From: Variovorax sp. PBL-H6
Lineage (GTDB): Bacteria > Pseudomonadota > Gammaproteobacteria > Burkholderiales > Burkholderiaceae_C
Assembly: GCF_901827155.1 (NCBI RefSeq)
Contig: NZ_LR594659.1
Span: 868,001-932,000, forward strand
Direction: 5' to 3'
DNA length: 64,000 nt
Below, piece by piece: positions 482 through 54,752 of this stretch. Both the position numbers and the translations under genes were made by a program. Positions within the stretch are counted from its first letter, which is position 1, and the number at the start of each line of letters is the position of its first letter. A model generated the notes under the pieces. The model was not told the origin of the DNA and did not search any database. It saw only the letters and a program-made list of their open reading frames with translations.

Positions 482-2401
482 ATGCGCCGCAGCGGCGAAG
501 CCCTTTCCCATCCCCATCACGCCTCGGCCAGCGAGCCGGCCCGGAGCGACCGCTCCGACTGGGCCACGCTTCGCCGGCTGTTTCCCTACCTCTGGCGCTA
601 CAAATGGCGGGTGCTGGCGGCGCTGCTCTTCATGGTGGGTGCCAAGGTGGCCAACGTCGGCGTGCCGGTGCTGCTCAAGAACCTGGTCGACACGATGACG
701 CCCAAGCCCGACATCGCGCAGGCGCTGCTGGTGGTGCCGATCGCGCTGCTGGTCGCCTACGGGTTGCTGCGCTTTTCGACCTCGCTGTTCGGCGAGCTCC
801 GCGAACTGGTCTTCGCCAAGGCGACCGAGGGCGCGGCGCGCAGCATCTCGCTGGAGGTGTTTCGGCACCTGCATGCGCTGTCGCTGCGTTTTCATCTGGA
901 GCGGCAGACCGGCGGCATGACGCGCGACATCGAGCGCGGCACGCGCGGCGTGCATTCGCTGATCTCGATGTCGCTCTACAGCATCGTGCCCACCATCATC
1001 GAGCTGACGCTGGTGCTGACGATATTGGGCGTGAAGTTCGATGCGCTCTTCGTCTGGATCACGGGTGCCGCGCTGGTGCTCTACATCGCCTTCACCGTCA
1101 CGGTGACCGAGTGGCGCACGCAGTTCCGCAAGACCATGAACGAGCTCGACTCGCTGGCGCAGAGCCGTGCCATCGATTCGCTGCTGAACTACGAGACCGT
1201 CAAGTACTTCAACAACGAGGAGTTCGAGGCGACGCGCTACGACGCCAGCCTCGACCGCTACCGCCGCGCCGCCATCAAGAGCCAGAGAACGCTGAGCCTG
1301 CTCAACACCGGCCAGCAGATGCTGATCGCGGTGAGCCTGGTGCTGATGCTGTGGCGCGCGACCGCGGGCGTGGTCGAAGGCCGCATGACGCTGGGCGACC
1401 TGGTCATGGTCAACGCCTTCATGATCCAGTTGTACATCCCGCTCAACTTCCTGGGCGTGATCTACCGCGAAATCAAGCAGAGCCTGACCGACCTCGACAA
1501 GATGTTCGTGCTGATGGAGAAGGAGCGCGAGGTGCGCGATGCCCCGGGCGCCCGGCCGCTCGCGGGGCGTGACGCCAGCGTGCGCTTCGAGGACGTGAGC
1601 TTTGCCTACGAGCCCTCGCGGCCGATCCTGAAGCATGTGAGTTTCGAGATTCCGGCCGGGAAGACCGTGGCGGTGGTCGGGCCGTCGGGCTCTGGTAAGT
1701 CCACCTTGGCGCGGCTGCTCTATCGCTTCTACGACGTCGGTATCGAGCCCCCACGGTCGCCCGCTACGCGTGGCTCCCTGCCCCCCGAGGGGGCCGCCGC
1801 CGGCTTGGGGCGGCCCGGCGCCGGCGGGGGCCGCATCCTCATCGGCGGCGAGGACATCCGTGAGGTGACCCAGGCCAGCGTGCGCCAGGCCATCGGCATC
1901 GTGCCGCAGGACACGGTGCTCTTCAATGACACCATCGAATACAACATTGCCTATGGCCGCCCGGGCGCCAGCCGAGCCGAGGTCGAGCAGGCGGCGCGGG
2001 CCGCGCGCATCCACGACTTCATCGCCGCAACGCCAAAGGGCTACGAGACACCGGTCGGCGAGCGCGGCCTCAAGCTCTCGGGCGGCGAGAAGCAGCGGGT
2101 GGCGATCGCGCGCACGCTGCTGAAGGACCCGCCGATCCTGATCTTCGACGAAGCGACTTCGGCATTGGACTCGGCGAACGAGCGCGCCATCCAGGCCGAG
2201 CTCAAGAGCGCGGCGCAGAACAAGACCACCCTGGTCATCGCACACCGCCTTTCGACCGTGGTCGACGCGCACGAGATCCTGGTGCTCGAAAGCGGCGTGA
2301 TCGTCGAGCGCGGCACCCATGCGCAGTTGCTCGCCAGGGATGCGCGCTATGCCCAGATGTGGGCCCTGCAGCAGATCGAGGCTGCCGAGCCCGTTCTTTG
2401 A
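482..2401 (+). CDS. ABC exporter, fused permease and ATPase, Atm1/HMT1 type, with inserted peptide
   Basis: 639-residue half-transporter: an N-terminal six-helix ABC membrane domain (about residues 30-330) and a C-terminal ATPase domain. Walker A is GPSGSGKST with Lys406, the signature is LSGGEKQ, Walker B is ILIFDEATSALD and the switch His lies in VIAHRLS. The segment NYETVKYFNNEEFE and the motif VPQDTVLFNDTI are typical of the Atm1/HMT1 class, whose members export glutathione-linked or iron-sulphur-related compounds; the substrate here is inferred only from family. Unusually, about 29 residues (roughly 420-448, rich in Pro, Gly, Ala and Arg) are inserted between the FYDV that follows Walker A and the GGRILIGG strand; this part is encoded by a repeat-like palindrome (separate entry). 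No frameshift or stop results. No clear ribosome binding site precedes the chosen ATG. Confidence 0.9.
   Translation: MRRSGEALSHPHHASASEPARSDRSDWATLRRLFPYLWRYKWRVLAALLFMVGAKVANVGVPVLLKNLVDTMTPKPDIAQALLVVPIALLVAYGLLRFSTSLFGELRELVFAKATEGAARSISLEVFRHLHALSLRFHLERQTGGMTRDIERGTRGVHSLISMSLYSIVPTIIELTLVLTILGVKFDALFVWITGAALVLYIAFTVTVTEWRTQFRKTMNELDSLAQSRAIDSLLNYETVKYFNNEEFEATRYDASLDRYRRAAIKSQRTLSLLNTGQQMLIAVSLVLMLWRATAGVVEGRMTLGDLVMVNAFMIQLYIPLNFLGVIYREIKQSLTDLDKMFVLMEKEREVRDAPGARPLAGRDASVRFEDVSFAYEPSRPILKHVSFEIPAGKTVAVVGPSGSGKSTLARLLYRFYDVGIEPPRSPATRGSLPPEGAAAGLGRPGAGGGRILIGGEDIREVTQASVRQAIGIVPQDTVLFNDTIEYNIAYGRPGASRAEVEQAARAARIHDFIAATPKGYETPVGERGLKLSGGEKQRVAIARTLLKDPPILIFDEATSALDSANERAIQAELKSAAQNKTTLVIAHRLSTVVDAHEILVLESGVIVERGTHAQLLARDARYAQMWALQQIEAAEPVL
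1739..1825 (+). repeat. In-frame interspersed palindromic repeat inside the ABC exporter gene
   Basis: About 87 nt that interrupt the conserved ATPase domain. The core has a C5/G5 stem (CCCCC-CGA-GGGGG) followed by GC-rich arms including GGGCGGCCCGGCGCCGGCGG. The layout (CCCCCACGGTCGCCCGCTACGCGTGG, then the C/G stem, then GGCCCGGC) resembles, in reverse complement, the two tandem intergenic copies at 24864-25047, so it looks like a member of the same extragenic repeat family. Its length is a multiple of three, so the reading frame continues. Boundaries are approximate because they are inferred from where homologous ABC proteins lack residues. Confidence 0.7.
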
Positions 2402-3405: not shown

Positions 3406-3428
3406 ATTGGTCTTGCTATTTGGCTGAA

Positions 3429-3515
3429 CGATTAATTAAGAAGCAGGGTTAACCCCATCTCGGTGCACGAGGAGCGAGGCTAACCTCGCACGTTAATTAA
3501 TTGGGTGATTAATTA
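3429..3515 (+). promoter_or_regulatory. AT-rich inverted repeats upstream of the importer-nic run, candidate TetR operator
   Basis: An unusually AT-rich island in a GC-rich chromosome. It holds CGATTAATTAAG at 3429, a CGAGG/CCTCG hairpin (loop CTAA) near 3474-3487, and a perfect inverted repeat of TAATTAAT (3494-3501) and ATTAATTA (3508-3515) with a 6-nt spacer. The 8-mer CGATTAAT recurs, in reverse complement, immediately upstream of the TetR gene (13550-13557). This suggests one regulator acts at both places. No clear -35/-10 pair was assigned. Confidence 0.5.
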
Positions 3516-3571
3516 GTTAGACGCCCGACCGGACTGCCGGCCCCGGGCCTTCCCCTTGATTGGAGATCGAA

Positions 3572-24863: not shown

Positions 24864-25047
24864 CACCGCGGAACCGGCTTTGCCGGGCCGCTGGTGTTGC
24901 CCCCGGTCGGGGGTGGACGGCTACACGAAGTGAGCCAACCTGGGGGTGAGCAACATCTCCACCGCGGAACCGGCTTTGCCGGGCCGCTGGTGTTGCCCCC
25001 GGTCGGGGGTGGGCGGCTACACGAAGTGGGCCAACCTGGGGGGCGAG
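24864..25047 (-). repeat. Two tandem copies of an 87-nt palindromic repeat (period 97)
   Basis: Copies at about 24864-24950 and 24961-25047, nearly identical, each with ACCGCGGAACCGGC, GCCGGGCCGCTGGTG, a C5/G5 stem CCCCCGGTCGGGGG, GGCTACACGAAGTG and GCCAACCTGGGGG. They fill most of the 24788-25052 gap between the two acyl-CoA dehydrogenase genes. The inverted-repeat parts could form strong hairpins in the mRNA. The layout resembles the in-frame insert at 1739-1825. Confidence 0.88.
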
Positions 25048-54342: not shown

Positions 54343-54702
54343 GTGAAGCGCGCCGGACCGCCGCTGGTGCAAGTCCCGAAAGGGCGCACTGGAGGAAAGT
54401 CCGGACTGCACAGGACAGCGCAGGAGTTAACGGCTCTCCACCGCGAGGTGAGGATCAGAGCAACAGAGACGAGTCGGCCGGGGCAACCCGGCCGGGTGAA
54501 ACGGGCAATCTCTGCGCGCAGCAACACCAAGTAGGCCAGCCTGGAGCGGCGCGGTTCGCCGTGACTCTCCACCTTGTGGTTCCGCAAGGAGAGCTGGCGG
54601 GTAGGTGGCACCGAGCCGTTCGGCGACGAACGGCCCAGAGTAATGGCGGTCACGTTGGGGGAAACTCCAACGCACAGAATCCGGCTTACAGGCGCGCTTC
54701 AC
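54343..54702 (+). ncRNA. rnpB: RNase P RNA
   Basis: Type A bacterial RNase P RNA of 360 nt, the catalytic part of the tRNA 5'-processing enzyme. The ends pair perfectly as helix P1: GTGAAGCGCGCC at the 5' end with GGCGCGCTTCAC at the 3' end. The conserved 5' block GAGGAAAGTCCGGACTGCAC and the 3' block CAGAATCCGGCTTA are present, as are the CAGAGTAATGGCGGTCAC region and the GTAGGCCAGCC stretch. Flanked by the short enoyl-CoA hydratase gene and the convergent S4-domain gene. Confidence 0.95.
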
Positions 54703-54752
54703 ACTTTCTTCAGATCGGCTTCGAGCGGCCGATTGCCACCGATGGCCGATGT

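Follow-up and report, generated by a model that had tools for sequence, protein, structure and literature searches.

Within the window analysed here, a stretch of 64,000 nucleotides from the genome of Variovorax sp. PBL-H6 (G000), the gene for an ABC half exporter encodes some 30 residues in its nucleotide-binding domain that most homologues lack. The locus raises the question of where these residues came from and how a conserved enzyme could accommodate them. We consider it very likely that a mobile repeat, referred to below as subfamily A, inserted in frame into the exporter gene and is translated as a tolerated linker.

The insert in the exporter gene

The best solved-structure matches of the exporter are plant ABCB25 (7n58) and NaAtm1 (4mrn). 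Each aligns in two stretches that end at residue 418/419 and resume at 449/450, and both alignments skip residues 419/420 to 448/449. The insert follows the Walker A helix and precedes the next beta strand, in what we take from the general ABC fold to be a surface loop of the nucleotide-binding domain; by homology and the same fold, this loop would be exposed. The sister genomes G051 and G005 carry an empty allele (GAC GTC CAG CAG|GGC CGC), whereas the filled allele of G000 has 90 nt between GAC GTC and GGC CGC. The insert is stop-free and places 30 codons where the empty allele has CAG CAG, a net gain of 84 nt. The preliminary description had recognized the insert but placed it at 1739-1825 with about 29 residues, slightly short of its actual extent (Table 1). 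Its other statements, namely that the insert is in frame just after Walker A, lacks stops, and leaves the downstream motifs intact, agree with the alignments. In an alignment of 35 sequences, Walker A residues G400, S402, G403, G405, K406, S407, and T408 are invariant, and the H-loop residues are likewise unaltered. Translation of the linker and full activity of the insert-bearing exporter are both predicted from these sequence features. An assembly error was ruled out as the origin of the insert because separate genomes and proteins have the same insert, including the exporters of V. paradoxus ISL-3 (G003) and Variovorax sp. MHTC-1.

Table 1. Coordinates of the exporter, its insert, and related features in the window and elsewhere in the G000 genome.
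Feature	Position	Strand	Basis or remark
Atm1/ABCB7/HMT1-type ABC exporter (half exporter), 639 aa	482..2401	+	PF00664 and PF00005
Walker A, residues 400-408	1679..1705	+	sequence
Repeat-derived insert, 30 codons (GIEPPRSPATRGSLPPEGAAAGLGRPGAGG) replacing 2 codons (Gln-Gln)	1739..1828	+	subfamily A, sense orientation
ABC signature LSGGE, residues 532-536, intact	2075..2089	+	invariant in 35-sequence alignment
Walker B LIFDE, residues 553-557, intact	2138..2152	+	F555, D556, and E557 invariant in 35-sequence alignment
Tandem pair of related repeat, subfamily B	24864..25042	-	extragenic according to the preliminary description and its position between frames
Tandem pair in femAB-like gene	L023:1482-1641 (G000:C1:3697181-3697340)		
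Sole Y1_Tnp (RAYT-like) gene found in this genome	L122, G000:C1:1335236-1335562		

Two other stretches of the window stand out. An A/T-rich segment at 3417-3525 contains repeated TTAATTAA and short inverted repeats, unlike its GC-rich surroundings, and the gene behind it looks, by reading, like a branched-chain amino-acid-type substrate-binding protein. The RNase P RNA (class A; RF00010, 202.7 bits) is located at 54345-54704, and an Rfam scan of the 64-kb window found nothing besides it.

A dispersed repeat with a covarying stem

A BLAST search of the insert block against its own genome (E ≤ 1; 40 of 47 candidates scored) gave at least 31 matches, the exporter copy included. The exporter insert is one copy of a dispersed repeat of 76-90 nt. 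The preliminary description had suspected a repeat-derived block and made this depend on other copies in the genome, which do exist. The 76-nt consensus of subfamily A is present in 58 of 61 Variovorax genomes (E ≤ 0.001) and in 171 of 200 genomes of the family, representing 115 of 126 genera (E ≤ 1e-5); as a rule, 15 candidates per genome were scored in the genus scan and 4 in the family scan, and the counts refer to presence, not copy number.

The subfamily A unit is GC-rich, stop-poor, and contains two hairpins, and it also occurs in tandem pairs and arrays. All six frames are open in 53 of 89 copies, compared with about 30 when letters are shuffled, and part of this excess arises because genic copies are selected to lack stops. 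The exporter copy contains a C6-GA-G5 hairpin and a second stem pairing at 12 of its first 13 positions. Its earlier characterization as palindromic is weakly supported: these stems exist, but folding gives no stability beyond that of shuffled sequences (z 0.19), and the repeat finder listed no inverted pair in this copy. Hairpin 2 of subfamily A consists of an 8-bp stem around TTGGGGCGGCCCGGC. In 89 non-redundant copies, out of 148 raw copies and with some kinship among them remaining, stem positions 2-8 covary (z 5.7-10.8; a level reached in 0 of 500 shuffles). Position 1 does not vary, and no clear covariation is seen from position 9 on. The preservation of pairing despite letter changes points to a role of the folded strand in the life cycle of the repeat.

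The tandem repeats at 24864-25047, which the preliminary description likened to the insert, share its layout but belong to a sister subfamily, as the block is not among the at least 31 subfamily A matches in the genome. This subfamily B has a unit of 88-96 nt, and the genome has 54 matches to it. When six sequences are aligned, 34 columns are invariant across both subfamilies. Five subfamily B units, 96 nt apart, are arranged in tandem at G000:C1:542783-543255.

The two subfamilies differ in placement. Based on a frame and GC3 test, subfamily A is located inside genes at 10 of 21 loci of this genome (covering 24 of the 31 matches, the 7 weakest being excluded) and at 14 of 28 family loci (the best matches of the family scan, one more being skipped as too short). 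Leaving out the doubtful L025 and L214, these counts become 9 of 21 and 13 of 28; the flagged loci that were not counted are L214, in which the insert is not visible, and L025 and L303, which are probable wrong-strand frames. In contrast, only 1 of 30 subfamily B loci (18 distinct sites) is inside a gene, and that one is doubtful (Fisher p 0.011 against 9 of 21 for subfamily A; 0.0016 without the doubtful locus). None of 30 subfamily B copies is open in all six frames, with 0.9 expected from shuffled letters.

In-frame copies in other conserved genes

At nine further G000 loci, the flanks were joined into one query and the orthologous sites were recovered in seven relatives. One locus (L019) is intergenic, and the other eight are in uvrA, an M16 peptidase, a PilB/GspE-type ATPase, an RND permease, hutH, an ABC ATPase, ppc, and femAB, with the M16 peptidase and femAB identified mainly by sequence reading. 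Across the eight sites in eight genomes, 28 of 64 alleles are filled, two of these being short remnants (ppc of G003 and femAB of G044). The frame is kept in 27 of the 28 filled alleles, and none of the 64 stretches contains a stop. Since the sites were picked by frames running across most of them in G000, where 7 of 8 keep the frame, the seven relatives provide the fair test, and there all 20 filled alleles do so. The one exception is the femAB-like gene of G000, in which a tandem pair (net +163 nt) leaves the two parts of the gene in different frames; G003, G012, and G051 each have a single in-frame copy in this gene. Reading frame follows orientation in the eight genes and the exporter: all five sense copies use the SLPPEG frame, and all four antisense copies the PSGG frame. 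In recQ and a penicillin-binding protein of other genera, another antisense frame (PLGGQRGHEVPS) is used as well.

The genic loci of the family scan, assigned by frame and GC3 rather than by comparison to empty orthologues, include recQ, a penicillin-binding protein, an amidohydrolase, histidine kinases, biotin carboxylase, uvrA, ribF, and valS. Pfam identified nine of them; the remaining recQ copies, uvrA, and one kinase were recognized by reading their sequences. The RecQ proteins of four genera (L203 by Pfam; L206, L213, and L219 by reading) have an antisense copy at the same place, directly before the CGNCDNC zinc motif.

Distribution and history of the exporter insert

The statement that homologues lack the insert is mostly accurate. 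Among 110 exporter loci (30 and 80 from two sets that overlap in some genomes), the linker is 3 residues long in 93 and reads VQQ in 74 of these; 6 have an insert of 31-33 residues, with ISL-3 counted twice (L030 and L124); 7, Polaromonas among them, have an intermediate linker of 7-11 residues; and 4 are outside the search pattern. A protein search with the insert region (E ≤ 10, 509 candidates) returned 76 matches, of which 56 are exporters with an insert at the same site, this exporter included. Proteins named Polaromonas, Ottowia, Oryzisolibacter, Alicycliphilus, and Limnohabitans are among the carriers, and eight of the 56 have 2-4 tandem units of about 28 residues each. A related peptide was found in ValS (15 matches), and the remaining five matches are an FtsX-like N-terminus, a UvrD-type helicase, two kynureninase-like proteins, and HolB. 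The E-values of these 20 non-exporter matches range from 0.034 to 6.9, and the case for them is the visible peptide. As the search was seeded with one reading frame, it is uninformative on frame choice.

On an exporter tree (FastTree; 163 of 166 sequences fitted the pattern, and 142 were kept after near-identical ones were dropped), the insert, defined as a linker of at least 25 residues with short remnants scored as none, requires at least 16 changes, gains and losses pooled. Eight of these are forced by well-supported branches, and shuffled labels require 41.3. In the Variovorax part of the tree, the insert appears in three places, each beside empty sisters.

This pattern leaves two histories to weigh, both compatible with a repeat origin. 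A single ancient insertion in the exporter of the family ancestor, with the absences due to loss or allele replacement and not to repeated insertion at the same site, is a realistic possibility to which we give somewhat less than even chances. The junction residues V-G-x-x-PPRSP and GG|GRI are widely common, which would favour some shared ancestry, and remnants and partial deletions occur. In addition, the two 40-codon windows surrounding the site show identities of 0.874 and 0.844 between G000 and G051, compared with 0.925-1.000 upstream and 0.892-0.950 downstream, which could reflect local exchange. On the other hand, most empty loci have exactly V-Q-Q (74 of 110, counting duplicates), a sequence that simple deletion would seldom recreate, and the tree requires many changes in which gain and loss are indistinguishable. 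The junction DNA also differs in L159 and L172, which would favour some independent insertion events.

Selection and alternative explanations

Purifying selection acts on the host genes of the inserts. In the exporter, dN/dS between G000 and G003, both filled, is 0.087 before the insert and 0.110 after it, in line with the earlier suggestion that the gene may still be active (dN/dS of about 0.1 on either side). The insert has thus existed long enough for selection to have acted on its carriers. Two pairs without the insert have values of 0.093-0.148, and three pairs with one insert-bearer have values of 0.017-0.246. For six other genes, 16 non-independent pairs of equal-length filled orthologues (gspE, rnd, and unequal alleles were excluded) give a pooled pN/pS of 0.65 for the inserts, from 97 and 64 differences, and of 0.071 for their flanks, from 60 and 273 differences. 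In view of this difference, the inserted peptides look tolerated rather than needed; they are weakly constrained, as an excess of differences at third codon positions within the inserts (p 0.004) indicates that some constraint remains.

Could the extra residues instead be an ordinary, lineage-specific extension of an exporter loop, selected for some function and resembling the repeat by chance? The recurrence of the insert at one exporter site in several genera is what such an extension would produce, as are the linkers of 7-11 residues at the same place in some relatives, e.g., Polaromonas. The preliminary description had regarded the same residues in unrelated genera as evidence against an insertion, and they do occur in Polaromonas, Ottowia, and others. 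However, an ordinary conserved loop is still disfavoured because filled and empty alleles alternate among the nearest sisters and a related peptide is visible, albeit at weak E-values, in unrelated proteins (ValS, kynureninase-like, HolB, and helicase). Moreover, the insert DNA matches at least 30 other places in the genome, and the pN/pS of 0.65 for inserts in the six other genes speaks against a selected loop. We regard this explanation as very improbable.

Hairpin byp elements of some mitochondria are skipped inserts, and the GC-rich, hairpin-forming sequence with its covarying stem could be taken to mean that the exporter insert, though present in the DNA, is likewise absent from the product because ribosomes bypass it or it is removed from the RNA, but this too has only a slight chance of being correct, as a skipped insert need not keep the frame or avoid stops, which every filled allele of the relatives does, nor would the exporter tandem arrays need to retain units of about 28 residues.

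With the repeat as a translated linker, a simple course of events can be proposed. The repeat would enter the exporter gene at the DNA level, in an orientation and frame that give ...PPRSPxxRGSLPPEGAxxGLGRPGxGG, be copied into mRNA, and be translated as a linker of about 28 residues rich in Gly/Pro/Ala after the Walker A helix. The filled allele would persist because the nucleotide-binding domain keeps working, and the insert would drift almost freely. Some lineages would then undergo tandem duplication, and others would lose the filled allele or swap it for the empty one. The survivors would be in-frame copies in tolerant places only.

Possible mode of movement

Duplication of the target site and terminal inverted repeats of 15-30 bp are features of MITEs. 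Target duplication at the insertion sites of the Variovorax repeat leaves a weak signal. In 70 copies, the mean shared flanking word is 4.43 nt, compared with 3.98 when shuffled (sd 0.11, maximum of 300 shuffles 4.31), and words of at least 6 are shared in 8 cases, compared with 4.7 expected, some of these copies being last tandem units. Several copies appeared to have an inner arm of hairpin 2 complementary to the flank, raising the suspicion of guide pairing with the host DNA. This idea was dropped because the match between the inner arm and the left flank in 70 non-tandem copies (3.70) is not clearly above shuffles (3.48, sd 0.10, maximum of 300 shuffles 3.81).

No transposase linked to the repeat was found in this genome. 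There is no copy of either subfamily within about 2.7 kb on either side of the Y1_Tnp gene, and the 6 kb around it contain just 10-11 nt words of either subfamily. No RAYT link was found in this genome.

Taken jointly, the observations might portray subfamily A as a mobile repeat adapted to intragenic life, stop-poor and contributing, by virtue of its unit length and frames, a flexible Gly/Pro linker. It could thereby colonize the genes of housekeeping enzymes across a family in which 115 of 126 sampled genera have it, with sister subfamily B staying intergenic. The 8-bp stem of hairpin 2, whose letters vary by copy while the pairing is kept, would then imply recognition of the folded strand by the moving enzyme. 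We offer this broader picture as speculation that is unlikely to be right in full.

Relationship to known repeat elements

Rickettsia palindromic elements (RPEs) are dispersed palindromic repeats found in frame within the genes of unrelated proteins. The repeat described here appears to work in a similar manner, with in-frame copies in conserved genes (27 of 28 filled alleles at eight sites, and the exporter). The likeness is one of behaviour, the host belongs to another bacterial class, and membership in the RPEs is not claimed.

The preliminary description knew of no comparable case in this family, but a beta-proteobacterial repeat element (BRE) had been described as a GC-rich, dispersed repeat of 75-91 bp with tandem copies, in Bordetella and in Comamonadaceae such as Polaromonas and Delftia, with some copies lying wholly in coding sequences (Hot et al., 2011; PMC3110155); its type copy is at positions 3605317-3605401 of B. 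pertussis. The Variovorax repeat is probably BRE. It resembles BRE in size (about 76-90 nt for subfamily A and 88-96 nt for subfamily B), in its tandem pairs and arrays, and in its host range across Comamonadaceae and Burkholderiales (171 of 200 family genomes and the named Comamonadaceae exporters). This match is by size, taxa, and habit as described, not by sequence, as the main text of the BRE paper prints no repeat sequence (PMC3110155). The accessible text of that paper describes no in-frame peptides, empty sites, selection, or same-site recurrence.

The GTAG- and CGTC-tagged REPs are 20-40 bp long, and intragenic copies are reported in DNA repair and tRNA-related genes, e.g., uvrA and tRNA synthetases (PMC3733652, which also cites RPEs). 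According to its authors, intragenic REPs may be neutral in linkers or loops or, more speculatively, may alter repair proteins; its main text does not mention Variovorax, Acidovorax, Delftia, Comamonas, Polaromonas, or Burkholderia. Unlike REPs, the Variovorax unit measures 76-90 nt and has two hairpins, and its copies do not flank the one Y1_Tnp gene of the genome. By inspection, neither a GTAG nor a CGTC tag is found at the ends of the 76-nt consensus, which are approximate. The enterobacterial RU-1/2/3 elements are small mobile repeats of 103-168 bp that keep open frames inside annotated genes (PMC2759123). As described, they have these open frames in common with the Variovorax repeat but differ in length and in their enterobacterial hosts.

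A literature search covering mostly open-access journals gave no pointer to in-frame repeat copies in Comamonadaceae. The kind of element is known already from BRE, REPs in genes, and Rickettsia RPEs. Within the same literature scope, no published account was found of how far the element extends in this family, of the filled and empty pairs, of tandem expansion inside a transporter, of the selection values, or of stem covariation.

Significance

These findings extend the insertion of repeats into protein-coding sequence from Rickettsia and REP-rich species to a large, mostly free-living bacterial family. The covarying stem offers a starting point for understanding its movement. Repeat-derived peptides of this kind may be mistaken for conserved insertions or annotation errors, which calls for caution. 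Finally, natural allele pairs, one filled and the other empty at the same codon of closely related sister species, would allow the cost of a 28-residue insertion to an enzyme to be measured directly.
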